NCBI GenBank assembly: GCA_030693415.1
Contig: JAUYAR010000150.1
Location: 1 to 48,386, forward strand
Length of the DNA: 48,386 bases
Source: Candidatus Cloacimonadaceae bacterium
GTDB taxonomy: Bacteria > Cloacimonadota > Cloacimonadia > Cloacimonadales > Cloacimonadaceae
Reading direction: 5' to 3'
The translations under genes and the position numbers were made by a program. Within the stretch, counting starts at the first letter, position 1. Every line of letters begins with the position of its first letter. Below are positions 24,601 through 48,386 of the stretch, one piece after another. A model generated the notes under the pieces. The model saw nothing but the letters and a program-made list of their open reading frames with translations. It made no database searches and had not been told where the DNA came from.

Positions 24601-26956
24601 TCAGTTGACCCTCGTCTTCGACGGCAACGTGAACTATCCCAGCGGACAAAACCTGATCCACATCCCCTTCACCACACCCTTTATGTATCTGAACGGACAA
24701 AACCTCGTGTTATTGGTAAACCGTCCCATGGACACCCAATACTTCAGTCCCTCGGATTTGTTTCTGACCCAGACCGTGGGAACGAACCGCGCCCGCAACG
24801 CCTATTCAGACGGCATCGCATACGATCCTGCCAATCCTCCCACCGCCACAGCAAGCGGAGCCTTCCCCAAAACATCCTTCTACATCGTCCCCGGAGGAGT
24901 GGGACACATCAACGGAACGGTCTATGGAGCCGGCGGAGCGCCGTTAGCCGGAGTTCTAATGCAATTTGCCACCGGCGGATATAGCGCAACTACCAACGCC
25001 CAGGGACTATATCAGATTCAAAACCTCATCACGGGCACCTATCAGGTAACCTTCAGCAAGTACGGATATATCAACCAGACCCAAACCGTTGAGATCTCGG
25101 AAGATGTGACCCTGACCCTGAATATCAACCTTGTCCAGATGCCGCAAGTGACCGTCGGCGGAACCATTCTTGCCAGCGACACCGGATTGGGACTTCCCGG
25201 AGCGGGGATATTCTTGCAGGGCTATGATAACTATAGCGGCACCACCAATACCCAGGGGCTCTTCAGCATACCCACCGTTTACGCGAATCAGACCTACAAT
25301 TATACCGTCATCTGCCCCGGCTATCAAAACGCCAGCGGTGTCATCAACGTGGGCAGCACAAACTATTCTTTCGGAAACATCATCTTAAGTGAGATCGCCT
25401 ACGCGCCCAGACAAGTGCAGGGTGAGATCATCAACAACAACACCCAAATCAGCCTCCAATGGCAGGCACCGGATCCCACCGCACTCGATCTGACTGAGAG
25501 CTTTGAAGGTGATTCCTTCCCGCCGGAAAGCTGGTCGAGGGTAATCAACAACAACGGTCCCGCCAACGCCAATGGAGTATTTCCCACTTGGTGCAGAACG
25601 GGTGGCATCACCATCGGCGGAAACCCAGTCAATCCCACGGACGGTAGCCATCAAGCCGGATTGTGGTGGAGCTATAGTCACCAGGATGAATGGTTGATGA
25701 CCCCCTCCTTCAACTGCCCCCCCGCAGCATATTTGAGGTTCGATTCCTATGTCTTTCTCGGTTCCACCAATGGCGATCACTACTATGTGAAAGTCTCCGC
25801 AAACGGAGGAACCACCTGGACGATCCTTTGGGATGCCTCAGCTCTGACCGGTGGATGGAACTACTATACCACGCCGATCAACATCAATCTCTCCATGTAT
25901 GAGGGACAGCAGATCAAGCTCGCCTGGCACGCGGATGATCCGCCTTCAAATGACGGTCTTTGGTATGTCTGGTTCATAGACGATATCTATGTCGGCAACG
26001 AAGTCGGCGCATTGCGTTTTGCCGCATCGGATTTCAGCAGGACTTCTGTAAGTTCCACCCGACCAAACACATCCATCGATGCCAGCCTTCCTTTGCGGCT
26101 CTCCAAAGATGTTAGACATGCGTATCCGCGCGTCGAGGGCAAATTCACCGCTACAAACGTCCAAAGCGGTGGTCGGTACAACAGCCGCGCCCTGATCGGC
26201 TACAAGGTCTGGCGTCTGACTGCGGGAATGGAGCAGAGCGAACAGACTTGGACTCTTCTGACCACGGCAACGATTCCAGGACAGACTCTTATTGACACCA
26301 ACTGGATGAATCTGCCAAACAACACCTATCGCTGGGCAGTCAGAGCAGTCTATACCTCAAACGTCATGTCCGTACCCGCTTTCTCCAATCAATTGGTCAA
26401 ACAAGTGGTCAGCGGATCCATCTCCGGCGTGGTGAGGACTCCTCAAACAGCACCGATTCAGGGAGCTACAATCACCGCGGGTGCATTTACCGCCACGACA
26501 AACACCTCCGGCGCCTACAGCTTGCTCGTCCCCGTCGGCACATACAGCGTCACCGCTTCCAAGACGGGATTCATTACCCTCACTGTCCATGACGTCCTCG
26601 TGAACACCAATCTTACTACCACGGTAAACTTCGTCCTTCACCCCGGATCAGCTACGGATGATGATTTGATGCCGGTTTATCATACGGAGCTGGGGGGGAA
26701 CTTCCCCAATCCCTTCAATCCCGAAACCACGATCAGCTACGCGGTCAAAGACCCCTCAGCCGTTTCTATCGGGATCTATAACGTCAAAGGGCAATTGGTG
26801 CGCACCCTGGTGAATAAAGAGCACAACAGCGGACGCTTTAGCGTCGTGTTCAATGGAAAGGACGATGCGGGCAAAAACATTGCCAGCGGCATCTATTTCT
26901 ACCGGATGACAGCTGGGAGCTTTGTCTCCACCAAAAAGATGATCCTCATGCAGTAG
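21671..26956 (+). CDS. Giant multidomain secreted adhesin-like protein with FlgD-like C-terminal sorting domain
   Basis: 1761 residues with a signal peptide at about 1-20. Two copies of a roughly 288-residue module occupy about 227-515 and 790-1078. Each starts NDLAA followed by a CARDB-like domain and continues into a segment containing PTKIW, PSTQLTLV and NRPMDTQYFSPSD. Between them are a choice-of-anchor D-like domain (MVNPSSHNYGTVLL, about 517-620) and a jelly-roll-like region. Then come two carboxypeptidase-regulatory-like domains (about 1080-1240), a choice-of-anchor J/cleaved-adhesin-like domain (about 1275-1440), a third regulatory-like domain (about 1580-1660), and NFPNPFNPETTISY leading to the sorting domain (about 1675-1761). 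It probably acts at the cell surface or is released. AAAGGAG precedes ATG 21671, and a terminator lies 27 bp after the stop. Confidence 0.9.
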   Translation: MKKILLINLMIAISLLCFAGIDEFYSFNATTGTYVPITGTPIPSIHSDDALSEAINIGFTFPYGENVYTVVRVSSNGWVGFGPTFAHSNLSNQLLSTEYRPLAAPLWDDISLSGGTAQYLVTGTAPNRIFTVQYQNARWNYSATNQFNFQVRLYETGKIDFIYGTYTGTPSNASASIGINMLPGGSTWIYSVTPGPPATVSQTTENISISAFPANGTIYEFLPLVAANNDLAAVGLLGDTTPSQGTPTNYTITVRNRGSNAQNVYQVKLVTSTGAELASIAGTPIAAGQTIDFTVTWTPATEGPLIIRGRVVLVGDQNPNNDQTQPLNITVMPEGMVVVTVGAGDQQAQIPVNMYWMNSLFETLYYPQELGMFGTVTALSFYNSFVTNLPNKPTKIWLGSTQNDNLAGGWIPSTQLTLVYDGNVNYPIGQNTITIPLQTPYTYAGGNLVMMVNRPMDTQYFSPSDVFYSQTVGTNRSLHIYSDGTQYFPENPPTGATPTGQFPKTTFHMTPIGPNPIFMVNPSSHNYGTVLLNSTHNRNFNVMNVGGGTLTITSIGIAGSEYMTLQNLPALPANLNTGQLLTFTARYNPTIAGNHTATITVNDHLRSGGRSTRDRLPNTIALTGSCVDPTITALPYLQNFDAVTAPALPVQWTTIVQSIAPAAGVTTSATTPYSAPNSALMTNSTDANASLIFVAPPYVNTINTNATRTKFYARSSGANFTLSVGVLTNPQIAATYIETQVITLSTTWTEYVVTFGGYTGTGRTIAFKHGLGGTNRSIFLDNIMLEYIPQNDLAALSITGNTTPSVGMLSNYSISIFNWGSNPQTTYQVKLFRTGDVELGSVAGPNINPGQTVVVAVPWTPTVEGATQVYGKVFLTGDQNNLNDQTPNFPVVVQPQGLMVLTIGSGNQTGRFPLDMYYMNSLFETLYYPAELGNTIGVIFGVGFYNNFATNLPNKPTKIWMGTTTQNDLSAGWIPSTQLTLVFDGNVNYPSGQNLIHIPFTTPFMYLNGQNLVLLVNRPMDTQYFSPSDLFLTQTVGTNRARNAYSDGIAYDPANPPTATASGAFPKTSFYIVPGGVGHINGTVYGAGGAPLAGVLMQFATGGYSATTNAQGLYQIQNLITGTYQVTFSKYGYINQTQTVEISEDVTLTLNINLVQMPQVTVGGTILASDTGLGLPGAGIFLQGYDNYSGTTNTQGLFSIPTVYANQTYNYTVICPGYQNASGVINVGSTNYSFGNIILSEIAYAPRQVQGEIINNNTQISLQWQAPDPTALDLTESFEGDSFPPESWSRVINNNGPANANGVFPTWCRTGGITIGGNPVNPTDGSHQAGLWWSYSHQDEWLMTPSFNCPPAAYLRFDSYVFLGSTNGDHYYVKVSANGGTTWTILWDASALTGGWNYYTTPININLSMYEGQQIKLAWHADDPPSNDGLWYVWFIDDIYVGNEVGALRFAASDFSRTSVSSTRPNTSIDASLPLRLSKDVRHAYPRVEGKFTATNVQSGGRYNSRALIGYKVWRLTAGMEQSEQTWTLLTTATIPGQTLIDTNWMNLPNNTYRWAVRAVYTSNVMSVPAFSNQLVKQVVSGSISGVVRTPQTAPIQGATITAGAFTATTNTSGAYSLLVPVGTYSVTASKTGFITLTVHDVLVNTNLTTTVNFVLHPGSATDDDLMPVYHTELGGNFPNPFNPETTISYAVKDPSAVSIGIYNVKGQLVRTLVNKEHNSGRFSVVFNGKDDAGKNIASGIYFYRMTAGSFVSTKKMILMQ

Positions 26957-35338: not shown

Positions 35339-36856
35339 ATGAAAAAAGATAGTTTTAACTCCGAGATCATCGTGAACGTCCACCCCTTGGAAAAGCGGGT
35401 AGCCGTGCTCGAGGACAACCGTCTGGTGGAGCTCTTTGTCGAGCGCATGGACAAACAAAACATCGTCGGCAACATCTACAAGGGCACCGTCAAGGATGTC
35501 CTACCCGGAATGGGAGCCGCTTTTATCGAGATCGGGCTCGATCGCACTGCTTTTTTGCATTATTCGGATATCGTGCTGGATTTCTTAGACGTTTTTGAAC
35601 ACGACAAACCGCAGAAAAGGCTTCATCCAAGCGATTCTTCCAAAATCGGCAATCTGCTCAAGCCCGGACAGGAGATCGTGGTGCAGGTGCACAAGGGACC
35701 TATCGGTTCCAAGGGCGCCCGCCTCACAGGTCAGATATCCATTCCCGGCAAATATCTGGTGCTTTTTCCAAACAAGGACAAGATCGCAATCTCCCGCAAG
35801 ATCTATAACCAGGGTGAGCGCAATCGCATCCGCACAATCCTTTCCAGCATCAAGGACCCCACCTACGGACTGATCGTGCGCACTGAAGCTGAAGGTTGCG
35901 ACGAAGAAGAGTTTAAGAACGAATACAATGCGCTGGCAAAAACATGGCGTCTCACTGAGAAACAGATCAAGTTTGCCAAGCCACCGGTCTGCGTCTTTGA
36001 AGAAAACGCCCTGGAAAACTATCTGATCCGCGATCTCTTTGGAGAGCATGTGGATCGTTTGGTGATCGATGACAAGGCTTTCCGCCGCAGAATCATCTCC
36101 TATCTGGAAGATATATCGCCGGAACTGGTCAATCAGGTGGAACTCTATAAAGAGGATTCCCCCATCTTTGATGCCTGGGGCATCGAGAAAAAGATCGAAA
36201 CCGTCTTTCACTCGCGCATCTATCTGCCCAGCGGGGGAAATATCAAGATCGAACAGACCGAAGCTCTTGTGGCGATCGATATCAACACCGGCAGTTTCAC
36301 CGGAAAAACAAACTATGAAGAAACAATCAAACGCACCAACATCGAAGCAGCAGCGGAAAGCGCGCGTCAAATCCGGCTTCGCGATCTCAGCGGCGTGATT
36401 ATCATTGATTTTATCGACATGATCAGCGAAAACAACAAACAGGAAGTGTTGGACACCCTGCGCAAAGGCTTGCGTCGCGACCGCGCCAAAAACAAGGTCT
36501 ATTCCTTCACGGAACTGGGTTTGGTGGAAGTAACCCGCAAACGCATGCGCTCGACCCTGATCGCCAATTTTTCCGATACCTGCCCATATTGCAGCGGTAG
36601 CGGACGCGTGATCTCCAAAGAAGCCATGACCATGCGCATCCATCGGTGGCTCAGCCGGGCGGAATATTTTATCAAGAATCAGATGCTGCGCATCGTTGTC
36701 AATCCTGATTTGCATGCCCATATCCGCAATCACGACGAGCATTTCGTCGCTTTCAAGGATCAGATAGAATTTTTTGCCGATGCGGATTCCCGCGTCGATC
36801 AATTCAAGGTTTTTCGCCTCCCGGGGATGGAGGAAATCACCTCAAAATACAATTGA
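35339..36856 (+). CDS. rng: Ribonuclease G/E family endoribonuclease
   Basis: Cytoplasmic 5'-end-dependent endoribonuclease for rRNA maturation and mRNA decay. The S1 domain (about residues 40-130, NIYKGTVKDVLPGMGAAFIE) is followed by the RNase-H-like and DNase-I-like regions. The catalytic Asp pair lies at about 314 (VAIDINTG) and 357 (IIIDFIDM), separated by 43 residues as in RNase E (303/346). The zinc-link CPYCSGSG follows. At 505 residues with no long disordered tail, this is RNase G rather than E in form. No intrinsic terminator is obvious before the convergent operon. Confidence 0.95.
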   Translation: MKKDSFNSEIIVNVHPLEKRVAVLEDNRLVELFVERMDKQNIVGNIYKGTVKDVLPGMGAAFIEIGLDRTAFLHYSDIVLDFLDVFEHDKPQKRLHPSDSSKIGNLLKPGQEIVVQVHKGPIGSKGARLTGQISIPGKYLVLFPNKDKIAISRKIYNQGERNRIRTILSSIKDPTYGLIVRTEAEGCDEEEFKNEYNALAKTWRLTEKQIKFAKPPVCVFEENALENYLIRDLFGEHVDRLVIDDKAFRRRIISYLEDISPELVNQVELYKEDSPIFDAWGIEKKIETVFHSRIYLPSGGNIKIEQTEALVAIDINTGSFTGKTNYEETIKRTNIEAAAESARQIRLRDLSGVIIIDFIDMISENNKQEVLDTLRKGLRRDRAKNKVYSFTELGLVEVTRKRMRSTLIANFSDTCPYCSGSGRVISKEAMTMRIHRWLSRAEYFIKNQMLRIVVNPDLHAHIRNHDEHFVAFKDQIEFFADADSRVDQFKVFRLPGMEEITSKYN

Positions 36857-37025
36857 CGGACATAGCTCCTCCTTTGCTCTTTCACTGATCTCCTGAGCGA
36901 TTTCTGCTGGTTGGCGAAAGTAGCGCGCAGTGAGAAGAGTGGGTGTGTATTGAGATGCGGAGTTGCGATATCCACATTAATAGGTCATGATCGTGATATC
37001 ACTGTCTCGCGTGATGGATAGCGAG

Positions 37026-37057
37026 GACAGTCGAGGCGACTGTTATTGCGATTTTAT
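37026..37057 (+). repeat. GACAGTCG...GATTTTAT element (family E), copy 2
   Basis: gacagtcgaggcgactgt then tattgcgattttat. It contains an ACAGTC/GACTGT stem. It is the counterpart of 16479-16510 on the opposite strand. Confidence 0.6.
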
Positions 37058-37069
37058 CTCTCCACACCC

Positions 37070-37087
37070 GCAGCATCGGCATGCTGC
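37070..37087. repeat. GCAGCAT palindrome (family B), copy 5
   Basis: gcagcatcggcatgctgc with the gctacat tail, 26 bp before a family D palindrome, as at 16576. Confidence 0.85.
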
Positions 37088-37113
37088 GCTACATGCCTTC
37101 CCGTCCCACAGCG

Positions 37114-37191
37114 TCAATCAAGCGGTAGTCAAGCGTTAATCAAGCGTAATAAAACTAACGCTTGATTAACGCTTGATTAAGGCTTGATTAA
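37114..37191. repeat. TTAATCAAGCG palindrome (family D), copy 2
   Basis: The loop and the right arm (37158-37191) are identical to the first copy. The left arm (37114-37147) has a few substitutions (for example tcaatc and ggtagtc), so the two arms no longer pair perfectly. Lying between convergent genes, it could act as a two-way transcription barrier. Confidence 0.88.
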
Positions 37192-37446
37192 CGCTTTGGA
37201 AAGAGGAAGGAGGGGGAAGAGATTGAAAATAAAGCATTTATGTAATGGTTTATGTAATGGTTGTGAAATGGTATAAAATGGCATTTATGAAATGAGATAA
37301 GAAATAAGAAGATTTGGGAAGTAATTGGCAACTTATTGGCGTTTGTGGGAGTAATTGCTCTCAGATTTGCCGAAAAACAAGCCAAGGATAGATATGCTAT
37401 AACTCGTTGATAATAAATGGCTTCAGATAATTCGGCTAACCGACGC

Positions 37447-38850
37447 TCACCGCTTTTCCAGTGCTTTGTAGAGAGATTTGCGCAGGACATAGGTCTTAAA
37501 TAAAGCCTTGAACGCACCGGTGATCATTTGGGGACGGATAGCCTTGCGGCGCAGACTGTTGATGAAGAGTGGGATCAGTTTCCAGCCTTTCCTCAGGTAA
37601 ATCTGGAGGTAGGCTTTGGGGAGGTAGCTTTCCATCTGTTTTGGGCTCATTCCGAGTGGCTGATATACGCAGTGCGTGATGTCAAAATCCTCCCAGTTAT
37701 AGTGAAGGATGCGGTTTTCCGCCTGCAATTTTGCAAAAACCTCGGTGCCAGGGAATGGAGTGAGTATGGAAATTAGGACATAACCAAAGGGGAGGGAACT
37801 GAAGAATTTGATATTTTGTTCGATGTATTTGGGCTGATCAAATTCGTCTCCGCTGCCCAGAATCATATACCAGTTGTGGGTGATGGAGAGGCGGTTGAGA
37901 GTGTTGATCGCCTGTTTGATCTGGGGGATATCGATCTTTTTGTGCATGCGTTTGAGCACTTCCGGGATGCCGCTTTCGATGCCGATCGAGACCAGCGTGC
38001 AGCCGCACTTTGCCATCCGCGCGAATAATTTGGGATCTTTAACGATGCTGTCCACACGGGTCATGCAGTTCCAGCGGAACTTGAGTCCCCGCTTTTCCAC
38101 TTCTGCGCAGAAGTCGTTCACCCAAACTGTATCGACGGTGAGATTATCATCATGAAACCAGAAAGTGTCGAAGCCCCAACGGATGTATTCCTCGACGTCT
38201 GCAATCACGTCCAACACCTTGCGTTGACGGTATTTACCGTTGTAGAATGCGGAAATAGAACAGAATGAGCAGCGGAAAGGACAACCCCGGCTGGAGACGA
38301 TCTTGGGGGTGAAAGTAAATTCCGGAGCGGTCAAATCCATCGTGATGCGGGGCAGATGGTCAAGATTCTCCAATATGGCGATATGACCTTCGTTAAAAAG
38401 CTTTCCGTCCTTTTCAAAGACGATGCCGGGGATCTCGGGATAGGGATTTCCCGCTTCGAGGGATTTGAGCAGCAGGGAAAACACTTCCTCGCCCTCGCCG
38501 CGGCAGACATAGGAAACTCCCGTTTCGGCAAGGACTTCTTTGTACATGAAAGTGGCATGGTGTCCGCCGAGGATGGTGGGAATGGATGGATAATCCTGTT
38601 TCAGCTTGATCAATAGCTCTCTGGCGACGGGATAGGTGGATGTGACGCAGGATACGCCGATAAGATCAGGTTGGTAGCGACGGATGTATCGATCCACGCT
38701 ATCGGCATCGGCGATCACGACAGTGCTTTTGTGTCCGGCATCGCGAGCGGCGGCTGCCACAAAGAGCAAGCCCTGCAGGATCTGATGACCCTTGCGCATG
38801 GTTTCAAGTCCGCCGGTGCGCCCCCGTGGGGATACAAAGAGTAGATTCAT
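37447..38850 (-). CDS. B12-binding-type radical SAM protein
   Basis: 467 residues. The N-terminal Rossmann-like cobalamin-binding-type domain (about 1-140: LIGVSCVTSTYPVAREL, PTILGGHHATF) lacks the DxHxxG lower-ligand motif. The radical SAM domain has SRGCPFRCSFC with Cys at about 190, 194 and 197, and WFHDDNLTVD follows. The closest recalled relatives are BchE-like or methylthiotransferase-like proteins of unknown substrate. I chose ATG 38850, 6 nt after AAGGAG; the longer frame upstream runs through rex and reads as low-complexity His-rich shadow. It is last in the seven-gene operon, 2 nt after rex. Confidence 0.88.
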   Translation of the reverse strand: MNLLFVSPRGRTGGLETMRKGHQILQGLLFVAAAARDAGHKSTVVIADADSVDRYIRRYQPDLIGVSCVTSTYPVARELLIKLKQDYPSIPTILGGHHATFMYKEVLAETGVSYVCRGEGEEVFSLLLKSLEAGNPYPEIPGIVFEKDGKLFNEGHIAILENLDHLPRITMDLTAPEFTFTPKIVSSRGCPFRCSFCSISAFYNGKYRQRKVLDVIADVEEYIRWGFDTFWFHDDNLTVDTVWVNDFCAEVEKRGLKFRWNCMTRVDSIVKDPKLFARMAKCGCTLVSIGIESGIPEVLKRMHKKIDIPQIKQAINTLNRLSITHNWYMILGSGDEFDQPKYIEQNIKFFSSLPFGYVLISILTPFPGTEVFAKLQAENRILHYNWEDFDITHCVYQPLGMSPKQMESYLPKAYLQIYLRKGWKLIPLFINSLRRKAIRPQMITGAFKALFKTYVLRKSLYKALEKR

Positions 38851-38852
38851 AC

Positions 38853-39476
38853 TCACTCCTTTTCTGCCAAACGGCGTGAAAGCACTGCCAGCGAAGCGAA
38901 CATATCGACGTATTCCACGATGATGTCCGGTGGCACGATGATCTTGTGCGGAGTGAAATTCCAGATAGCCTTGATCCCGCTGTGCACCATGATGTCCGCG
39001 ATCAATTGTGCAGCTTCGGGAGGCACGGTGATGATGCCGATGCGGATGTTTTGTTTCAATGCCATGGTGCTGAAATCCCAAGCTGAATAAACCGGGATGC
39101 CGTGCACCATTCCACCGATTTTGGCAGGATTGTTGTCAAAGGCGGCAACGATGGAGAGCCCTTTTTGAGAAAACTCCTGATAGCCCAAAAGCGCGGAACC
39201 GAGGTGTCCCACTCCCACCAAAAAGCTGGTGGAAGTATCATTCCAATTGAGCAGTGCTTCGATTGCCGAATAAAGTTCCTTGATCCGATAGCCCTTTTGG
39301 GGGATATTTTCAACCCCGGTAAAAGTGAGATCCTTGCGCACCATGGTCTGATGCACGTCTGCAAAGACGGAAATCTTGGTGGCGGAAACTTCTTTGAGAC
39401 CCGCCCGGCGCAGTTGTTTCAACACTTCCAGATACTGGGGAAGGCGTTTGAGGGTGCTGGTGGGTATCTTGACCAT
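38853..39476 (-). CDS. rex: Redox-sensing transcriptional repressor Rex
   Basis: 207 residues. The N-terminal winged-helix part (about 1-80: RLPQYLEVLKQLRRAGLKEVSATKI is split over the DNA-binding helices, with HQTMVRKDL) is followed by the Rossmann NADH-binding fold with GVGHLGSALL at about 88-97 and the FDNNPAKIG acidic loop. The C-terminal helix (VEYVDMFASLAVLSRRL) is for domain swapping. Rex senses NADH/NAD+ and represses fermentation or respiration genes. AAGGAG overlaps the stop of the upstream gene. No clear TTGTGAA-type operator is visible ahead of the operon. Confidence 0.93.
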   Translation of the reverse strand: MVKIPTSTLKRLPQYLEVLKQLRRAGLKEVSATKISVFADVHQTMVRKDLTFTGVENIPQKGYRIKELYSAIEALLNWNDTSTSFLVGVGHLGSALLGYQEFSQKGLSIVAAFDNNPAKIGGMVHGIPVYSAWDFSTMALKQNIRIGIITVPPEAAQLIADIMVHSGIKAIWNFTPHKIIVPPDIIVEYVDMFASLAVLSRRLAEKE

Positions 39477-39485
39477 GCAAGCTCC

Positions 39486-42215
39486 TTATTCGAAAGGCAG
39501 AAAGTTGATCAGCAAGTTGAAATGCATGCTGGAGAGGATTGCTCCGACCACGACGCTGATCACAATCACGAGTTTGAAATAATCCTGACCCTTGAGCATG
39601 CTGATCAGTTCCATGTTTCGGGACAGATATGCAGACGCGGCGTAGAATTCTTCGCCGATCAGAGTATAATCGCAGGTGGTGATAAAGAATGGCACCTGGG
39701 TGATGGCGTCGGTGCCGGCAATCTGGATCGAGCCGGCCTGGTTGCCGGTTTCGGTCATTAGCAACGCCTCGGCATTGAAATATCCCATATAGAATATCGT
39801 GGCGACGCGTTCCCGCACTGTGATGCCATTGACGGCAGCGCTGAAAGCGAACTGGGCATCGGAGACGTAAAATATGTCGTTTTGATTGTAGGCATCCTGT
39901 CTGCCGGCTTCGCTATAGGCGGTTCTCACCATTTCCTGAGCGAGGGGAACTACGAAATAATCCAAATGCGGGGAGATCAGACGAATATCATATTCAGCGG
40001 TTTTCCGTGCGATCTGATTGAGGATCATCATCGCAGCGATCGTGCAAGGCTCGCCAAGCGACCCCCATCCGGGAACGAACATCACCGGTCTGCCCATTTC
40101 CGTGGCGCGTCCCACGGCGTTGTCCAACTCTTCAAGACCAGCGATGGGGCGGATGAAAAGCTCCTTCCTGCGGCTGTTGTAGATGGAGAATAGCAGTAAA
40201 AAACAGAAGAGCAGGCTTCCCAGCAAGGTGGCATATTTGGTGTTGTCAAACCATTCGGAAACGGGATAGTTCCAGATGCTGCCGTCGGGATGAGTAAACG
40301 TATTCGATTGGGAATGCATTCCCTTGCCATCGGTGACGAGCAGTTGATAGGCAAAGCTGCGAGCGTTGAGCTGGCTTTCGCGCCATAGGGTTTTGAGCCA
40401 TGCCCGCTCGCTTTTTTTGGCGCTTGCTTCTTTATAGGCGGGGTGTTTGGTGATAAAGTCCGCAAATTCGCTGTCCTTGAGGTTTTTCTCAAACTCATCG
40501 CGGAAGAGCGAGGCACGGAAGACGGCTTCTTTTTCATTGTCCACCGCCACTATGAAACTTGGATCGATGGTGATGCGCTTGGTGGCGTCGTCGAAACCCT
40601 TGAGCACTTTATATAGCGTACTCTCATAGCTGATCGCGTGGTCATAGGAACGGATCATGGCGTTGCTGCGCAAGCCGGGGGCAAAATCGGCACTCAATTT
40701 TGACCTTGTGAATACGTCGTAATATAATCCGGTGAGGGGCATTGAGTTCAAGCGGATGTTTTTGGCATTGAAACGCCGGGTGATGTTGTCGTAAAAAACG
40801 TTCTGCTTCAACACATCGTTGCTCCAAGCGCGCGTTCCCCTGATCTTGACAACGCTTTCCACCTTGAATTCCGCTACGTTCTTCAAAGCTATAGGGATGT
40901 TTATCCGAAAGGTTTTATCTACAAAGTGTTCGATCACTTCCAGGTGTTTGACGCCGCTTTTATCGTAAAACGTAAATTTGATCTGGTCGATTTTATAGCT
41001 TTCGTTCTCCGCCAGTTCATAATTCACGCGCAGACGGGTCTTCTGGGAATTGGCATAAGCCGCTTGACTGATATAGGCGATGGGATGACCGATTGAGACC
41101 AACAGGTTGTCCCCTTTGTCGTTCATCTTGTCCTTGATCTTAAATTCGGGAACCTTGGGCAGCATATCGCTGGTTCGGATGCGAAGGGAATTGCCGAGGC
41201 TGGCGGTTTCAAATCCAGAATAATCTACATAGCTGAAGACGGGGAGATAATCCCCAACATTTTGCAAAGTGCCGATGCCCGCTTCCCTGGCGTTCACTTT
41301 GTGATATGAAAACGGAGTGTTGCTATGATTTGGCAGGTCGAAGAGATGGATCGATCCATTCTGCCAGGCGGCGTTGAATACGCTGTCCGGCGCGTGGAGG
41401 TTTTTGAGCTGCTCATTGTGGTATAGCGGGATCATGCTCTTCGGCATCAGCCATGCGCTGTATTGAGCAATGTCCTGGCTACCGGAGGGTGGGCTGAATT
41501 CAAAGCCAAACTCTTGTGTGTCTTCCAAATAGGTGGTGTGCAGCACGGCTGTTGAATCTGGACGGTTGTCATACGGCGCCACGGATTTGATCTCGGAGCC
41601 TGAGAAATGCCTGCCCCGCTCGTTTACTGCTACGATGCTGTAATAATACTCTTTGCCGGGGATGGGATTGGCAAAGATATAGTCAAACTGGTTCAGTTTA
41701 TAGCCGGCAAGCACGTCCTCGCCTTGTAGCACTTTCTTGCCGCGGTAATAGAAATTGTTTTTGCTGATGGCGCCCAGAACCGTGTAGTGGGGCAAGAGGT
41801 TTTTCAGCACAATCGGATCGAGCGGCACAGCAAGGTAGAGCGGGCTGTCGGGAGCTTGGTGCTTTTCCTTTTTGAGTTTGCCGGGAGCTTTTTCAAATTC
41901 GATCAGAGGTTGATAATCCCGGTCAAAGAAATAGAGCTCGTTGCCGATAACGCCCAGTTTAGGATCGACCTCGATCTTGCTGAGGAGAAAAAGGCTGTCC
42001 GGATTGTGTCCCCGGTAGATATTATATTGGATGACCCGCTTGGATTTGTCCAACGGTTTCCATTTGAGCATGACGCCGGTGCCGTCATCAAAAGGCATAT
42101 CCAGCACACTGAAGTTTTGCACGGTGGCATCTGTGTCATCTTGCTTTTTGGCACAGGAGCCGATCAGCATCAACGCCACCAACAGAATTCCCAATATCGG
42201 CATATTCTTATTCAT
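39486..42215 (-). CDS. FN3/DUF6754-like membrane lipoprotein, paralogue 2
   Basis: 909 residues. The lipobox is LMLIGSC with Cys at 21. The long N-terminal part has fibronectin-like segments (DDGTGVMLKWKPLDKSKRV, with IYRGHNPDSLFLL). A membrane segment at about 655-675 (LLGSLLFCFLLLF) is followed by the basic NSRRKELFIR, which points inward, then an alpha/beta domain at about 690-885 (NAVGRATEMGRPVMFVPGWG ... GSIQIAGTDAITQVPFF) that I recall as DUF6754. A final membrane segment is VVISVVVGAILSSM. The predicted layout is FN3 part outside, DUF6754-like domain in the cytoplasm. It is clearly paralogous to 44786-47704, with the C-terminal domain best conserved. Its function is unknown. Confidence 0.75.
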   Translation of the reverse strand: MNKNMPILGILLVALMLIGSCAKKQDDTDATVQNFSVLDMPFDDGTGVMLKWKPLDKSKRVIQYNIYRGHNPDSLFLLSKIEVDPKLGVIGNELYFFDRDYQPLIEFEKAPGKLKKEKHQAPDSPLYLAVPLDPIVLKNLLPHYTVLGAISKNNFYYRGKKVLQGEDVLAGYKLNQFDYIFANPIPGKEYYYSIVAVNERGRHFSGSEIKSVAPYDNRPDSTAVLHTTYLEDTQEFGFEFSPPSGSQDIAQYSAWLMPKSMIPLYHNEQLKNLHAPDSVFNAAWQNGSIHLFDLPNHSNTPFSYHKVNAREAGIGTLQNVGDYLPVFSYVDYSGFETASLGNSLRIRTSDMLPKVPEFKIKDKMNDKGDNLLVSIGHPIAYISQAAYANSQKTRLRVNYELAENESYKIDQIKFTFYDKSGVKHLEVIEHFVDKTFRINIPIALKNVAEFKVESVVKIRGTRAWSNDVLKQNVFYDNITRRFNAKNIRLNSMPLTGLYYDVFTRSKLSADFAPGLRSNAMIRSYDHAISYESTLYKVLKGFDDATKRITIDPSFIVAVDNEKEAVFRASLFRDEFEKNLKDSEFADFITKHPAYKEASAKKSERAWLKTLWRESQLNARSFAYQLLVTDGKGMHSQSNTFTHPDGSIWNYPVSEWFDNTKYATLLGSLLFCFLLLFSIYNSRRKELFIRPIAGLEELDNAVGRATEMGRPVMFVPGWGSLGEPCTIAAMMILNQIARKTAEYDIRLISPHLDYFVVPLAQEMVRTAYSEAGRQDAYNQNDIFYVSDAQFAFSAAVNGITVRERVATIFYMGYFNAEALLMTETGNQAGSIQIAGTDAITQVPFFITTCDYTLIGEEFYAASAYLSRNMELISMLKGQDYFKLVIVISVVVGAILSSMHFNLLINFLPFE

Positions 42216-42267
42216 AAGTTGTTTCCTTCATGTCATCATGGCAAGCGCCATCTGCAAACAGAGTAAT

Positions 42268-42309
42268 GGTAAGCACGGGGATGCGAGGGTTGGCATCCCC
42301 GAGCTTACC
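42268..42309 (-). promoter_or_regulatory. Strong stem-loop inside the membrane-protein operon
   Basis: ggtaagcacggggatgc (42268-42284) pairs with gcatccccgagcttacc (42293-42309), one mismatch in 17, around an 8-nt loop. It lies in the only large gap of the operon (111 bp). No U-tract follows on the minus strand, so a processing or partial-termination site is likelier than a full terminator. Confidence 0.65.
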
Positions 42310-42326
42310 AAGGATTTGTCCGGCTG

Positions 42327-42929
42327 CTATTTCAGCAATCCCATGACGTCATTTACCAGGAACTGGATTCTGCCGATCAATAGCGAGATACGCGCCATCA
42401 CGGTCAAACCGAAGGAAGCGCCAAATCCCACCATCATATACCACTTTCCCACGTTCACAAACTTGCCATATAAGCCGGCGTGCGCCTTTGAAAAGAAGAA
42501 ATAGAGCAGCACGGCGATAGTTCCAAAGAAGATCAGAAACAAGTTGACGCTCTCGAGCGGAACCATTGCCTGACGCATCTGCACTAGGATGCTGGTGTGC
42601 ATGGCAAGCGGAACGCTGGCGCCCACGCCCATCATCGAAAAGGCGATGGGATAGCGAGATAGCCAGCTCAGTTTGCGGGAGAAGCGGAGGAGGTAGAACA
42701 TACCGATAATGCTGGGGATGATCAGAATCCACTGTTGTTTGAGGAATAGCGGTTGATAGAAATAGGGCACGAACACGCGCTCATAAGTCAGCACCAAACC
42801 ATAACCCAGCGAGATGCCTACCAACAGTTGCTCGGACATCTGATACAGGGGATTGTCCTTGTAAAGAAAGGAGAATATGCACAAGGTAAAGAATGCTCCG
42901 ACCAGGTTGCTCATTAATTCGAATGACAT
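42327..42929 (-). CDS. Polytopic membrane protein of the DUF6754-like operon, 200 residues
   Basis: It has about six hydrophobic segments. It starts MSFELMSNLVGAFFTLCIFSFL and includes YQMSEQLLVGISLGYGLVLTYE and a C-terminal GFGASFGLTVMARISLLIGRIQFL. That ending resembles the last segment of the 209-residue neighbour (GVGLGSVATTLKIMLGIERSYL), so the two may be distant paralogues. AGGGAGGA precedes the start. No family was recognised. The conserved Gly-rich segment followed by a basic helix suggests a shared way of packing in a complex. Confidence 0.7.
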   Translation of the reverse strand: MSFELMSNLVGAFFTLCIFSFLYKDNPLYQMSEQLLVGISLGYGLVLTYERVFVPYFYQPLFLKQQWILIIPSIIGMFYLLRFSRKLSWLSRYPIAFSMMGVGASVPLAMHTSILVQMRQAMVPLESVNLFLIFFGTIAVLLYFFFSKAHAGLYGKFVNVGKWYMMVGFGASFGLTVMARISLLIGRIQFLVNDVMGLLK

Positions 42930-42941
42930 GTTTTCCTCCCT

Positions 42942-44129
42942 TTATTTCTTTGCCGTTCTGGCTTTTTGGATGAAGTAGCCGATGTTGCCCAGAATAATGA
43001 ACAGGATGATCATGATATGGGCGACGGATTGGGCGTTCATGCCGATGCGCGCGACCTTGAATTTGTAGAGGATATTGCGTGTCATGCGGTTGAGATCACC
43101 CCAGGCGAGATAACCGAGCTCTTCTTTTTGCTGCTCGGTGACGGTGCGCACATCGATCAATATCTTGCCGTCCTGCTCAGTTTTGATCTGATTGAAGAGG
43201 GCGGTTTTATCCGGATATTTATCGATGAAAAGCTGAAACTCCGCCGGTGAAAAGATGGCTATGCTTTGAGTGGTGATATTGATCAGTTTCTTTGCCGCGT
43301 CGTCCGCGAGGATATCGCTGCTGAAGGATCTGCCGGGGATGATCTTGACGCCTTCCTCGTCGAAAGTCGGACGGATGGGAGAGCCAGGTTCGCGATAGGC
43401 GGCAAAGACGTCCACCAGCTTTTCATACTCGGCAGCGCCCTTGAGCCCTGCAAGCATGCCGATAAACTGCCCGCTTTGGAGGTAGGGATATTGATCGGCA
43501 GCCATCACCGCAGTCACTCCCACAGAGACGTTCAAGCCAAACTTCGGTCTGGCATAGAAGAGCCAGGACATGCCTGCCACCGAGCCGGAAAACTCCACTA
43601 CCAAGTTCAGTTCGCTATAGTTGTTGAGCGCTTTCATGATCGGCAGATTTTCCACCTTGCGCCCTTCGGCATCCGTCTTCACCGTGGTGGAGATGTTGTC
43701 TCCCATACCGATGATGGTGGGCATCGCCAGAGCGGCGGGAATGTATCCGAAATTACAATAGTCCACGCCGGATTTGATATCCGGATATTCTTCCTTGACG
43801 GTGTTGATGGCATAATCGATGATTGGTCCGCCTTGTGGCAGCCAGGTGAGCATAAACACTTTGATGTTGCGCTCAAAGCAATGCCGCAGGATCGCCACTT
43901 CCATCGGAAAGAGTTCCGGCATCGTGGAGGCATCGTGTGCAAAGCTGAGCAGTAAAGCGCGGTCTTCCCTGCCGGAGAATGAATCTATCATCTGATAGAG
44001 ATTCTCCGTGGGAGGAGTCGTGACGTTATCAGAATTGTAGGGAATCATCAGGGGAATGACGATGGCAAGTGCGACCACGATGTAGATCCAGCGTCGGTCG
44101 AGCTTTTGTATGCGTTCAAAAAAGTTCAT
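42942..44129 (-). CDS. Double-anchored extracytoplasmic alpha/beta protein, 395 residues
   Basis: A basic N terminus (MNFFERIQKLDRRW) and one membrane segment (WIYIVVALAIVIPLMIPY) precede a soluble alpha/beta region of about 310 residues. That region includes RALLLSFAHDASTMPELFPM, IKVFMLTWLPQGGPIIDYAI and FSGSVAGMSWLFYARPKFGLN. A C-terminal membrane segment (VAHIMIILFIILGNIGYFI) ends in a basic tail. Positive-inside charges place the soluble part outside the cytoplasm. I chose ATG 44129 because AGGAG abuts the ATG at 44135 and is correctly spaced for 44129. No known family was recognised. Confidence 0.7.
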   Translation of the reverse strand: MNFFERIQKLDRRWIYIVVALAIVIPLMIPYNSDNVTTPPTENLYQMIDSFSGREDRALLLSFAHDASTMPELFPMEVAILRHCFERNIKVFMLTWLPQGGPIIDYAINTVKEEYPDIKSGVDYCNFGYIPAALAMPTIIGMGDNISTTVKTDAEGRKVENLPIMKALNNYSELNLVVEFSGSVAGMSWLFYARPKFGLNVSVGVTAVMAADQYPYLQSGQFIGMLAGLKGAAEYEKLVDVFAAYREPGSPIRPTFDEEGVKIIPGRSFSSDILADDAAKKLINITTQSIAIFSPAEFQLFIDKYPDKTALFNQIKTEQDGKILIDVRTVTEQQKEELGYLAWGDLNRMTRNILYKFKVARIGMNAQSVAHIMIILFIILGNIGYFIQKARTAKK

Positions 44130-44143
44130 CTTCATCTCCTAAA

Positions 44144-44773
44144 TCAATCACCGCCGCCCAAATATGAGCGTTCGATTCCGAGCATTATTTTGAGGGTGGT
44201 GGCGACGCTTCCAAGTCCTACGCCTAACATGATGCCACGCTTTGAAGCCAGGTTTGGCACGTCCAGAATCCATTGCGAGATTGTGGGAAGGTGTTTGCTG
44301 ATCTGCACTCCCAATGGAACCTGAGCAAGCATCACGAGGATGGCGGCAAGCAGCAGCACCGTCGCTTCCGGCGAACGCGCACGAAAGGCTTTGTATGCCG
44401 CGGATGCCATATAGAAAGCCAACAGCGCAAACATCGTGGCGCTCATCGGCATCTGCATGTTTTCAAACATCCACATATAGACTCCGCCTTTTTGGGTGCC
44501 GCCAATGAATCCGGCAAGGGTGGTTACTACGAATCCGGCAAAGAAGAAGTAGCTGTATTGCCATTTCGGAGCGCGGCGTTTTATCTTGTTTGTGTGCATC
44601 ATGGATAGGCTGACCACACCGAGAAGCATGGCAAACGGTGCCATGGCGCGTGCCCAGGGCATATAGAAGCTATAGTAGAAATCATCCTGGAAGAACTTGT
44701 GCGTGCTCAGCGCCCAACCAAACCAGAAGATTCCTCCGATTATCACGATCATCAGTGGTATTGTTTTCTTCAT
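44144..44773 (-). CDS. Polytopic membrane protein of the DUF6754-like operon, 209 residues
   Basis: It has about six hydrophobic segments, starting MKKTIPLMIVIIGGIFWFGW. HKFFQDDFYYSFYMPWARAM forms an amphipathic loop, and the C terminus is GVGLGSVATTLKIMLGIERS followed by YLGGGD. GAGG lies 7 nt before the ATG. It lies 12 nt after the 972-residue gene and 14 nt before the 395-residue gene. No family was recognised. Similarity of its last segment to the 200-residue protein suggests a common ancestor. Confidence 0.7.
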   Translation of the reverse strand: MKKTIPLMIVIIGGIFWFGWALSTHKFFQDDFYYSFYMPWARAMAPFAMLLGVVSLSMMHTNKIKRRAPKWQYSYFFFAGFVVTTLAGFIGGTQKGGVYMWMFENMQMPMSATMFALLAFYMASAAYKAFRARSPEATVLLLAAILVMLAQVPLGVQISKHLPTISQWILDVPNLASKRGIMLGVGLGSVATTLKIMLGIERSYLGGGD

Positions 44774-44785
44774 GAAATACCTCGT

Positions 44786-47704
44786 TTATTTTAAAGGAAA
44801 TAGCTGCATAAACTGAGTGACCTGGAAAGTAGCCAATATGGCGCCTACAATCACGCAGGAAAGGATCAGGAACTTGAAATAGTCCTGTGCCTTCAGGGTG
44901 CCCAAGAGCATGGGCTCTCTATTCAAATAGGCGGAGGCGGCATAGAGTTCCTCGCCGATCAATGTATAGTCGCAAGTGGTAATAAAGAAAGGAATCTGGG
45001 TGATGGCATCGCTGCCGGCTATCTGAACCGCGCCCACCATGTTTCCAGTCTCGGTCATGAGCAGCGCTTCGGCGGCAAAGAATCCCATAAAGAAGTTCGT
45101 CGCCATTCGTTCGCGCACCATGATGCCGTTCACACCAGCCACATAAGCAAACTGGGCGTTGCTCAGATAAAACACGCTGTTCTTATCGTAACTATCCGGT
45201 CGTCCCACTGAATAGTGAGCCTCGCGAACGATTTCCTGCGCGATCGGCATCACGATAAAGTCATAACAGGGAACGATGATCCTGGTATCGTATTCCGCAG
45301 CTTTTTTTGCCACCAGTCCGAGTATCCCCAAGGATGCCAGGGTGGCGACGTCCGAAAGTCCGCCGTTGCCCATGCAATAAAGCATCGGGCGTCCCATTTC
45401 GGTGGCGCGGCCAATGGCATTGTCGATCTCCTGCAAACCGGCAATGGAACGGATAAAGAGATCCTTTCCTCGCTTTGCCAGATTGACAAAGATCACCACC
45501 GCCAAGCCAAAAAGAAGGGTTGCGATCAGCGTGACAATCTTATTGCGGTCAAACCAGTTGGAAACGGGGATCATAAAATTGACCTCGCCGTTTGCCAATG
45601 TGTCCGGATCGGATTCCACATACAAGCCGCGTCCGTCTGTCTTGACCAGCATATAGCTCTGGTGACGGGATTCCGGCTCGCGGATCGATGCCACATATCG
45701 GATGCGGCTTCGGTCGCTATTGCGGGAAAGTGCTTTCTGCATGTGTTCGTTGTTTTCGTAGGCGTTCACCCGTTTCTGCATGGTCTCGAGCTTATTTTTC
45801 ATCCCGGTGATCTGAGCTTCCACCTCCGGTGTCATGGGCATCGCTTTCAGGGTGTCCATCTGGGACTTCATTTCGACCAGCTTGGTTTTCATTCCGTCGA
45901 TGGCTTTGATAGCCTCATCCTTGAAGAGATTGGTCATCAACGTCATCTCGGCTTCGCGGTCATAGGTGAAATCCAATTCAGGGGAGACGAGGATATTTCC
46001 TCTGTGCTTTTCGCCGAGTAAGAGCTTGCGGCTGAATCTTTTGCCATCGGTATAGGTGTGCAGCATGTCCCCTTTCACAAAGTTGATGCCGTAAACCATG
46101 CGTCCCACGGTGGAAGGATAGGAAATCGTGACGTCCAGATTGTTGTCGTAGGAGGTGTTGCTCTTGATCAAAGTATATTGTGGCGAACGGATTCCGCGGC
46201 GGTAAACCACGTTTTTGATGCCGGAAACTTCCACCCCGGTGCGGTAAAGCTGTTTGGAAGGCATCAGCGCCAGCATCGTTTCGTCCCATTCGAGGTTTTG
46301 TTCGATGTAATAATCTGCCGGAATCTTGGGCTTGCCTTGCATGGTGATGCGCATTTTGAAACCCTGTTTATAGTCATAGCCGGTGGGAACGTCCAGCCGG
46401 ATGATATTGTCCTGATGGTATTCGTTGATCGTGACAAAGGGCTTTTCCTCTCCAGTGCGATAGAGGGAGAAGTAGATGTTTTGCACTTTCTGGGTTTCGG
46501 CTTTATTGAGCTGATAGTTGATCTTCAGCTTGGTATTTTCCTGATCCAGGGAGGAGGTCTTGGTGATGAACACGATGGCATTGTCCCAGATCACGGAAAG
46601 CCGGTCGCCTTTGTCATTGGGTTTGTCTTCCGCATGGAAAGTCGGCTTTGGCGGAATGGCACTGCTGTTTGTTTGCCGGGTTTGCACCATGTGGGACATT
46701 GAGGAGCTTTCGCCGTCCAAAAGCTCGATCGCGTAGCCAGCACCCTTGATGGCATCGATGTCAATCCCTGTGGAAGCCAGGCTCGCGGCACCAACGGCAG
46801 TATAGTTCTTGAGTGCTCCACCGCCGATTCCACCTTGGGCGATCGGAGTGGCGTATGCTTTTTGCTGCGCGGGATCGTCCTTGACCTTCATCCACAGCGA
46901 ATCGGAGATTCCACGCACGATATGGATGCGATAGGAGGTGATGTCTTGTTTGAAAAGCGGAAGCTCCCATTCAAAGCGCAGCTCCTGTTTGTCCTCCAAC
47001 CAGGCGCTATAAAACGCTGTGGCAGGTTCTGGAGGATTGGTAAGCGGAGTGGAGGCTTGAGGAATTGCATGGGGCATATACTGGTTTCTTTCGTTGACCG
47101 CCACTACTGTGTAATAATAGGTCTCGCCGGGGCGCAGATAGGCATAGGTGACCAACTGGCGAAACTTCATCCCGGCATAGTAAGTGGAATCCTCCGCGTT
47201 GGCGGAGCGCACTTTGTCGGAGCGGTAATAATATGCTTTCTTTTCGAGGGAGGAGAAGATGTCAAATTTCTCTGATAACCGAGCCGCGATCTCCATGTTC
47301 CGAGGGATCTTGCGGAAGAGCGGACTCTTATCGTTCTGCCCTTTTTCCCTGCGCAATTTACCTGGGGAGCCGATGTCGATGAAATCGCTGTTGCCGCTGT
47401 CATAGAAAAACATCTGGTTGGAAGCGACTCCGGTTTTTACGTTCACCGGAATCGAAGCTAAGAAAAACAGTGTGTCTGGACTGATTCCGCGATAAACACG
47501 ATATTCCAATATTCTCTTGGAACGGTGAAGTGGCTTCCAGCTCAGCATCAATCCCGTGCCGTCATCGGCAGGAATATCCTCAATCTTGAAGTCTTCCACA
47601 ACATTTTCTTCGGCAAGCTTTTGCTTTTGTGCTATTACAACGCTGATAACAGCGATGAACAACAAGACCAGCAACAGGCTTAAATGTCGCTTTGATAACC
47701 TCAT
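44786..47704 (-). CDS. FN3/DUF6754-like membrane protein, paralogue 1
   Basis: 972 residues, first gene of the operon (AGGAG 7 nt before ATG 47704). The N-terminal hydrophobic segment (LSLLLVLLFIAVISVVIAQ) has no lipobox Cys, unlike paralogue 2. The FN3-like part is similar (DDGTGLMLSWKPLHRSKRI, YRVYRGISPDTLFFL). A coiled coil of about 65 residues (near 593-660, KTKLVEMKSQMDTLKAM) is absent from paralogue 2. A membrane segment with basic exit (LAKRGKDLFIR) leads to the DUF6754-like domain at about 755-945 (NAIGRATEMGRPMLYCMGNG, VQIAGSDAITQIPFF), then a last membrane segment. Function unknown; two such chains may form a heteromer. Confidence 0.75.
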   Translation of the reverse strand: MRLSKRHLSLLLVLLFIAVISVVIAQKQKLAEENVVEDFKIEDIPADDGTGLMLSWKPLHRSKRILEYRVYRGISPDTLFFLASIPVNVKTGVASNQMFFYDSGNSDFIDIGSPGKLRREKGQNDKSPLFRKIPRNMEIAARLSEKFDIFSSLEKKAYYYRSDKVRSANAEDSTYYAGMKFRQLVTYAYLRPGETYYYTVVAVNERNQYMPHAIPQASTPLTNPPEPATAFYSAWLEDKQELRFEWELPLFKQDITSYRIHIVRGISDSLWMKVKDDPAQQKAYATPIAQGGIGGGALKNYTAVGAASLASTGIDIDAIKGAGYAIELLDGESSSMSHMVQTRQTNSSAIPPKPTFHAEDKPNDKGDRLSVIWDNAIVFITKTSSLDQENTKLKINYQLNKAETQKVQNIYFSLYRTGEEKPFVTINEYHQDNIIRLDVPTGYDYKQGFKMRITMQGKPKIPADYYIEQNLEWDETMLALMPSKQLYRTGVEVSGIKNVVYRRGIRSPQYTLIKSNTSYDNNLDVTISYPSTVGRMVYGINFVKGDMLHTYTDGKRFSRKLLLGEKHRGNILVSPELDFTYDREAEMTLMTNLFKDEAIKAIDGMKTKLVEMKSQMDTLKAMPMTPEVEAQITGMKNKLETMQKRVNAYENNEHMQKALSRNSDRSRIRYVASIREPESRHQSYMLVKTDGRGLYVESDPDTLANGEVNFMIPVSNWFDRNKIVTLIATLLFGLAVVIFVNLAKRGKDLFIRSIAGLQEIDNAIGRATEMGRPMLYCMGNGGLSDVATLASLGILGLVAKKAAEYDTRIIVPCYDFIVMPIAQEIVREAHYSVGRPDSYDKNSVFYLSNAQFAYVAGVNGIMVRERMATNFFMGFFAAEALLMTETGNMVGAVQIAGSDAITQIPFFITTCDYTLIGEELYAASAYLNREPMLLGTLKAQDYFKFLILSCVIVGAILATFQVTQFMQLFPLK

Positions 47705-47885
47705 ACGCTATCTCCTATTCTATTCTAACTTGTAATTGCCTTATGCATCGCATCACCTGAAAAGCACCCGATATTGTCAATGACTTTTTTGGGTGGATAG
47801 GTGAAGCCGGGGATGAGAAATGAGAAATGAGAGATAACACAGAGGAAAGCAGAGTGAAAGCTGAGCAAGAGAAGAGGGATGATGT
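47705..47885 (-). promoter_or_regulatory. Pyrimidine tract plus TTGACA ahead of the seven-gene operon
   Basis: Read on the minus strand, a CT-rich tract with cctctgtgttatctctc (within about 47815-47880) is followed by cacccaaaaaagtca and TTGACA (47775-47780). CATAAG begins 29 nt after the box. The order of elements is the same as ahead of lepA, lepB and the ABC operon; the downstream spacing is a few bases longer. Confidence 0.45.
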
Positions 47886-47969
47886 GAGGTTCAACCTTGA
47901 CCAGTCCGTAGGACGGCACTTTCTTCATCTCTTATCTTGCACCTAAAAAAATCCGGTTCTTCCCCCTTT

Positions 47970-48027
47970 GCATTACGGAATCAATACGGACTCATTACGG
48001 ACTAAGTCCGTATTGACTCCGTAATGC
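47970..48027 (+). repeat. ACGG palindrome (family A), copy 3
   Basis: Arms at 47970-47992 and 48005-48027 (GCATTACGG...CCGTAATGC) pair with one mismatch around cattacggacta. The flanking ccccctttgc and taaggagtagcgc match the copy at 456-513. Confidence 0.88.
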
Positions 48028-48038
48028 TAAGGAGTAGC

Positions 48039-48056
48039 GCAGCATGCTGATGCTGC
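48039..48056. repeat. GCAGCAT palindrome (family B), copy 6
   Basis: gcagcatgctgatgctgc, 11 bp after the family A palindrome. One loop base differs from the other copies. Confidence 0.8.
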
Positions 48057-48138
48057 GGATGAGCCTGCAAATAGTTAATCTGCAATGAGTTAACCCTTGG
48101 AGCGGGAAATTCCGATTCCCCACAGTTTACAAACCACA

Positions 48139-48156
48139 GCCGAATCGGAGTTCGGC
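48139..48156. repeat. GCCGAA/TTCGGC hairpin repeat, right copy
   Basis: gccgaatcggagttcggc, followed by atcccagtgg. It matches 240-257 with one change in the hairpin. Confidence 0.65.
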
Positions 48157-48248
48157 ATCCCAGTGGGGTGGGTGGCAGGACTCGGGGGTTAGTATTCGCT
48201 CTATCCTGTGCTATCTTGTGTCGCCCCTGATGGGGTTGCCGCGCAGGA

Positions 48249-48266
48249 ACCGACGGGGACGTCGGT
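48249..48266 (+). repeat. CCGACG hairpin, intron-occupied copy
   Basis: accgacggggacgtcggt, followed by aattc and then directly by the intron start GTGCGCC at 48272. Confidence 0.85.
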
Positions 48267-48271
48267 AATTC

Positions 48272-48386
48272 GTGCGCCTGTGAGCGATACATATCAGACA
48301 GGTGAAAGTCCTGTTCAGAGCACCGTTAAAACTCTGTAGCCGAAGGTAACTGCGTCACCGTGAGGTGGGGTGGAGAGCAACTGGAA
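48272..48386 (+). mobile_element. 5' end of a group II intron (truncated by window edge)
   Basis: 115 nt starting GTGCGCCTGTGAGCGATAC, identical to the reverse complement of 12-126. It shows the same GGTGAAAGTCC and GCCGAAGGTAACTGCGTC motifs expected of intron domain I. The maturase and 3' end lie outside the window. Confidence 0.75.

Follow-up and report, generated by a model that had tools for sequence, protein, structure and literature searches.

The question raised by this locus is which of seven closely spaced minus-strand genes, in a Candidatus Cloacimonadaceae bacterium, belong together and what they might do as a unit. The genes lie on contig C150 of a 2.8-Mb assembly, in a stretch of 48,386 nucleotides that was analysed as a whole (to be referred to as the window). 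The original prediction treated all seven as one uncharacterised membrane module, built of two duplicated half-modules around a unique central protein, with the Rex regulator as its connection to NADH balance.

Gene content of the locus

The genes and domains are listed here from the upstream end of the operon (TM, transmembrane helix; topologies are predicted).

44786..47704, minus strand: A1, 972 aa; signal/anchor, large extracytoplasmic FN3-like arm, TM, DUF6754, TM
44798..45562, minus strand: DUF6754 of A1, residues 715-969 (PF20539, E 3.3e-116)
44144..44773, minus strand: B, 209 aa; about six TM, N-terminus inside
42942..44135, minus strand: C, 397 aa; TM, extracytoplasmic alpha/beta domain, TM, with the N and C ends both inside
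43395..44015, minus strand: putative Rossmann-like domain of C, residues 41-247 (AlphaFold2 model mc25c7a768145 and fold matches)
42327..42929, minus strand: D, 200 aa; six to seven TM
39486..42215, minus strand: A2, 909 aa; second A, lineage-specific
39504..40259, minus strand: DUF6754 of A2, residues 653-904 (PF20539, E 4.9e-110)
38853..39476, minus strand: Rex redox-sensing repressor, 207 aa; passenger, beside A2 in part of one family
37447..38850, minus strand: B12-binding radical SAM protein, 467 aa; passenger

The intergenic gaps calculated from these coordinates are 12, 8, 12, 111, 9 and 2 nt, in agreement with the close spacing first reported. The two large proteins are paralogous, as had been proposed, with 329 of 980 alignment columns identical (34%, E 1e-174). 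They had been described as FN3/DUF6754-like. Both are members of PF20539 (387.4 and 367.1 bits, against a curated cut-off of 27), so the DUF6754 part of this description stands, while the FN3 match in A1 is weak and falls under the Pfam cut-off (22 versus 25 bits). The N-terminus of A2 reads as a putative lipoprotein signal, with a LIGSC lipobox. The middle protein, C, has the expected anchor at each end and is 397 rather than 395 residues long. The similar last segment claimed for B and D was not recovered. BLASTP gives an E value of 0.11 over 10 residues. As candidate ancient duplicates, B and D have motifs that look collinear by eye, but they gain no support from hhalign, and their profile score of 16.1 is no better than the 17.6 of the reversed control.

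In the Pfam scan of the window proteins, C matches no family, and B and D match none above cut-off. The PADLOC anti-phage defence models have zero matches to the seven proteins at E 0.001, Rfam has no match at gathering score within 36800-48386, and the promoter scan finds no minus-strand site upstream of A1. Roughly 260 nt upstream of the A1 start, positions 47965-48032 form an inverted repeat (28-nt arms, 93% complementary, 12-nt loop), either a repeat element or a terminator.

Two other proteins of the window have composite architectures. The 1761-aa protein at 21671-26956 contains carboxypeptidase-regulatory and Ig-like domains and a Por_Secre_tail/FlgD_ig C-terminus, which suggests a type IX-like sorting signal. 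In the 1011-aa protein at 9407-12442, an MA-type peptidase and a WD40-like repeat occur together with an Omp85-type C-terminus.

The core unit contains four genes

The real unit is four genes in the fixed order A-B-C-D, and not the seven-gene set. In the Cloacimonadota loci (counted without L001-L030, L051-L080, L094 and L119, which are short or duplicate), this order is present for 110 of the 117 copies of C (84 long and 26 short ones). The median gaps are 12, -1 and 10 nt. Contig ends truncate five of the seven exceptions (L115, L120, L136, L148 and L154); L144 is without A, and D comes before C in L153. Of 124 Cloacimonadota genomes, 121 carry DUF6754, and 117 of these 121 also have C. The next such gene after D is a further A in 45 of the 84 long copies, and A2 is a lineage-specific extra A.

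The source genome has a second A-B-C-D operon with identical gene order (locus L031, contig C149). Its products are a shorter A (417 aa from the first start codon) followed by a B of 232 aa, a C of 281 aa and a D of 212 aa. C is thus not unique, and the arrangement of a duplicated half-module around it is not borne out. We are nearly certain that A-B-C-D exists as a system. Directly upstream of the short A is a gene for a 267-aa lipoprotein-like protein (L031:6054-6857), with similar genes in L032, L033, L167 and other loci.

The remaining two of the seven genes were correctly identified at the outset. The Rex assignment is firm (NF003994, 243.8 bits with a cut-off of 130), and the last gene encodes a B12-binding radical SAM protein. 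The 32 same-family loci with more than 900 nt of room include 16 in which A2 is followed by Rex and eight with a radical SAM gene within 3 kb downstream. Both are local passengers in part of one family only. A consensus-based scan for Rex operators gives 7 sites where 2.58 are expected, and no operator-like site lies between the operon start and the window end (47705-48386).

These results bear on the first view of the locus, in which Rex controls a sensory module whose two halves flank a unique protein. The gene order and the presence of Rex in the window are consistent with it. The second ABCD operon, the dissimilarity of B and D, the absence of Rex from half of the family loci with room and the lack of a Rex-like site upstream all argue against it, and we consider it highly improbable.

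Distribution beyond Cloacimonadota

Genome contigs were scanned with a DNA pattern for the motif D-Y/F-T-L-I-G-E-E, which produced at least 116 loci. The record titles listed, for 80 of these, cover about 20 phylum-level groups by our own count, with group names as given in the records, nearly all of which are metagenome-assembled genomes. They include Planctomycetota, Nitrospirota, Zixibacteria, Eisenbacteria, Elusimicrobia, WOR-3/Stahlbacteria, Fermentibacteria, Neomarinimicrobia, Acidobacteria, Gemmatimonadota, Binatia, Sumerlaeota and a Kofleriaceae bacterium, as well as the Firmicutes Symbiobacterium and Fermentithermobacillus.

A profile built from Cloacimonadota sequences matches A in 114 of the at least 116 loci (exceptions L275 and L283). 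In this motif-selected set, 70 copies of A have 2.6 kb or more of sequence downstream, and 64 of these are followed by B, C and D. Four of the six exceptions (L292, L192, L274 and L280) resemble ORF-calling artefacts by eye. In L229 a 209-aa gene, taken for Rex, comes next, and L277 is without recognisable C and D. Some genomes have tandem double sets (L196, L223, L246 and L281). Within and beyond Cloacimonadota, the homologues are linked at nearly all of the loci that could be assessed. With this linkage, and with no solved structure matched by sequence beyond chance level, the idea of an uncharacterised membrane module survives.

DUF6754 has no match in 14 well-known control genomes. Eleven viral-contig stretches match a motif, and none of them encodes a relative. 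Plasmids have no match.

An associated pair of proteins, probably cytoplasmic

In many loci a 375-aa protein (S375) is encoded upstream of A and is itself preceded by a GlmL-like protein of about 610 aa. The at least 116 motif-selected loci include 78 copies of A with room, and 29 of these have S375 no more than 600 nt upstream. The GlmL-like protein is a member of PF13941 (MutL; 432 bits versus 27). In contrast to GlmL itself, it stays below the equivalog cut-off of NF040745 (232.7 and 235.7 bits versus 475), and its neighbours are S375 and often ABCD.

In 35 genomes, all chosen as DUF6754 carriers, searches detected the GlmL-like protein in all but G126, G138 and G148 (32 of 35) and S375 in all but G138 and G152 (33 of 35). 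In Nitrospirota, DUF6754, S375 and GlmL are each present in the identical 22 of 118 genomes, and none of the three is present in the other 96. One inheritance event could explain this pattern because the genes adjoin there, and it may reflect a single ancestral acquisition. Among 199 Planctomycetota genomes, DUF6754 is present in 50 and S375 in 47. Both are found in 45, DUF6754 only in 5, S375 only in 2 and neither in 147, so that 45 of the 52 genomes with either have both (Fisher p 2e-36, with kinship ignored). This co-presence also holds where DUF6754 and S375 are on different contigs or far apart (for example in G332, G358 and G392).

S375 was matched in 120 of 124 Cloacimonadota genomes, including three without DUF6754 (G049, G060 and G095). 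Eight of the 120 matches are weak, with best E values above 1e-31, and may be to a fused paralogue. The four DUF6754-bearing Cloacimonadota genomes that have no S375 match (G009, G025, G101 and G122) are all less than 90% complete.

The pair is apart from ABCD in all five Cloacimonadota GlmL loci that we read. In the source genome it is on contig C106 (L327), behind a 132-aa protein of a further recurring family. In L337, L339 and L341, a single GlmL-S375 pair adjoins two ABCD sets, which fits a shared energiser. L196 and L246 are the same contigs as L337 and L341, and they show the C that went undetected in L337 and the second set that is truncated in L341.

Both proteins are highly conserved, with 175 invariant positions of 620 in GlmL (31 sequences) and 72 of 376 in S375 (29 sequences). 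The stretches of GlmL conserved at 95% or more include TDxGSTTTKA and GVDIGGATTD. We take these to be candidate phosphate motifs of the ASKHA fold family, to which GlmL/MutL-type proteins belong. The associated protein is ATPase-like, matches GlmL/MutL and keeps ATP-motif candidates.

The N-terminal part of S375 contains a weak RnfC_N stretch (E 0.00058 in L182 and 0.02 in L237). The likeness to RnfC is limited to this stretch, a weak barrel-sandwich-like match, and is below the cut-offs (20.3 versus 25.6 bits for RnfC_N, and 12.6 versus 245.95 bits for TIGR01945).

The GlmL-S375 pair very probably belongs to the A-B-C-D system. A different arrangement would have the pair as an independent enzyme-reactivation (chaperone) unit inherited alongside ABCD, with ABCD alone as an envelope sensor or structural complex. 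Known GlmL is described as acting on glutamate mutase as a reactivating chaperone (PMC4682846), and by analogy a chaperone role is possible for the GlmL-like protein. The separation of the pair from ABCD in the five Cloacimonadota loci and the three genomes with S375 and without DUF6754 are in keeping with such independence. The matched presence in Nitrospirota (22 of 22 carriers) and Planctomycetota, the adjacency of the genes in several groups and the score far below the equivalog cut-off speak for the pair as a part of the system, and the independent arrangement is unlikely.

Three further kinds of protein are encoded near the pair or resemble it. Small proteins of one family, about 100-140 aa long (L327:2019-2417, with relatives in L206, L201, L231 and others), are encoded just upstream of GlmL-S375. 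The family was found in 28 loci by profile, some of these matches being ORFs in overlapping frames, and has no Pfam match above cut-off. A small protein upstream of GlmL in L335, L336, L337, L338 and L340 recurs within the GlmL cluster, and one member (L193) has a weak PH-domain match (bPH_6, E 0.00011). In addition, single proteins of about 980-990 aa (L330:11843-14824 and G000:C38:11950-14820) resemble fused GlmL and S375, and look like paralogues of the separate pair.

Predicted topology and folds

Topology was predicted from hydropathy and charge averages over 48-57 sequences, with positive-inside counts. In A, two TM helices flank a cytoplasmic domain, and in C two TM helices flank an extracytoplasmic domain. 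The averaged hydropathy suggests six TM helices for B and six or seven for D.

The AlphaFold2 model of the last 272 residues of A2 (m20a398660d61) has a mean pLDDT of 93.6, and that of C has a mean of 86.7, with low-confidence stretches at 251-253 and 266-289. Both models have a domain of alternating helices and strands between TM helices, TM-(alpha/beta)-TM. The domain of A is better conserved, with 21 invariant positions over 57 sequences compared to 4 in C. The invariant positions of A include R52, R66, E69, R164, E179, E185, Q203, D212, E218 and E219 (first-sequence numbering).

For the A domain, the VIA-align matches listed include Sir2 (Z 11.8, 3.5 Å, 144 aligned), phosphoglycerate kinase (Z 11.0), KtrC/KtrA (Z 10.1), transhydrogenase domain III (Z 9.8) and CODH epsilon (Z 9.7). 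For the C domain they include MT0777 (Z 9.4), an RCK domain (Z 9.2), several dehydrogenases and CODH epsilon (Z 8.8, 145 aligned), and these listed matches tie within one Z unit. Foldseek finds no match with E below 0.001 for the A domain or C.

A and C were considered as ancient duplicates, based on collinear motifs by eye. The hhalign P is 0.017 and arises through a TM helix. Their soluble parts are collinear, but the profile score of 17.3 compares with 14.8 and 17.1 for reversed controls, and this relationship was rejected. The helix/strand order is common to the two models, and PDB entries 1kjn, 3cf4, 9c0q, 1id1 and 4l76 are in the top-50 VIA lists of both. These similarities indicate a common fold class only.

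Sequence searches of the PDB identified no characterised complex for A-D. C and D have no match, and A and B have single matches at chance level (E 0.89 and 0.41, respectively). The GlmL-like protein has none at E 0.1, and S375 has two weak ones (best E 0.0058). No Pfam family recurs among the relatives of B, C and D: 11 families are each found in one or two of 55 B members, none is found in 48 D members, and none recurs in C relatives.

Sir2, transhydrogenase domain III and CODH epsilon are grouped here as DHS-like NAD/FAD-binding folds. A is near all three, and CODH epsilon aligns end to end with C. The identities are 10-14%, however, and other Rossmann-like folds tie with them. Moreover, unlike these folds, A and C are flanked by TM helices, and the domain of C is predicted to be outside the cytoplasm.

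The fold matches could be read as a redox- or nucleotide-linked membrane complex, in which A would bind NAD(P), FAD or another nucleotide, B and D would carry electrons or ions, and Rex would report the NADH state in some members. The place of Sir2 as the closest listed match to A, the two other DHS-like matches, the RnfC_N-like stretch of S375 and the Rex genes after A2 are consistent with this. On the other hand, phosphoglycerate kinase ties with Sir2, RCK domains are near Z 10, Foldseek finds no support below E 0.001, a GxGxxG-type motif was not seen by eye after the first strand of A, and Rex is lineage-specific. We regard a redox complex as somewhat unlikely.

The RCK matches (KtrA/KtrC and MthK, Z 9-10) and the compact 6-7 TM proteins B and D also bring to mind a gated ion channel or transporter, with a B/D pore gated by the RCK-like domain of A. 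In view of the lack of a recurring Pfam family in B or D members, and of PDB sequence relatives beyond E 0.41, such a channel is very unlikely.

A possible mechanism

The reading that we prefer is an ATP-energised one, in which this region supplies one copy of the membrane components (A-B-C-D), and the cytoplasmic part consists of a GlmL/MutL-type protein and S375. It draws on the observed gene order, spread, co-occurrence and ATP-motif candidates, and on a fold class of A and C taken from predicted models; the mechanism itself is put forward tentatively. GlmL would bind and hydrolyse ATP, and S375 would couple GlmL to the Rossmann-like DUF6754 domain of A on the cytoplasmic side. B and D, within the membrane, would then pass the change on, both to the Rossmann-like domain of C outside the cytoplasm and to the FN3-like arm of A. 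Powered by ATP, such a device would span the envelope and move, assemble or remodel something at the cell surface. We infer ATP use, all of the contacts, the direction of coupling and the substrate. The energy-linked envelope complex of the original prediction is possible in this form, with the energy link moved from Rex to a GlmL-type protein that is encoded elsewhere in the genome.

It is possible, though doubtful, that the system represents a new class of ATP-driven trans-envelope machine, in which the Rossmann-like domains of A (inside) and C (outside) would face one another from opposite sides of the membrane with B and D as the link between them, and in which one GlmL-type protein and S375 would drive one or more ABCD sets in common. 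The same doubt attaches to the combined statement that such an ATP-driven machine is old enough to occur in about 20 phyla (among the titles listed) and is near-universal in Cloacimonadota.

Relation to known systems and implications

The Pfam entry for DUF6754 (PF20539), to which the full domains of A1 and A2 belong far above cut-off, describes a single domain, names no function and does not cover the constant partners B, C and D. No paper that names DUF6754, PF20539 or PF13941, and none that links Cloacimonadota with fibronectin type III, was found in open-access full text. The four-to-six-gene system matches no known complex among those compared.

Three of the four core members are without a family name. 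The parts list and the phyletic profile make the system testable in cultured relatives, with Symbiobacterium, Nitrospira and planctomycetes as candidates. With its single gene order conserved across many phyla, and its DUF6754 marker in 121 of 124 genomes of one of them, the set probably has a basic role at the envelope of these bacteria.
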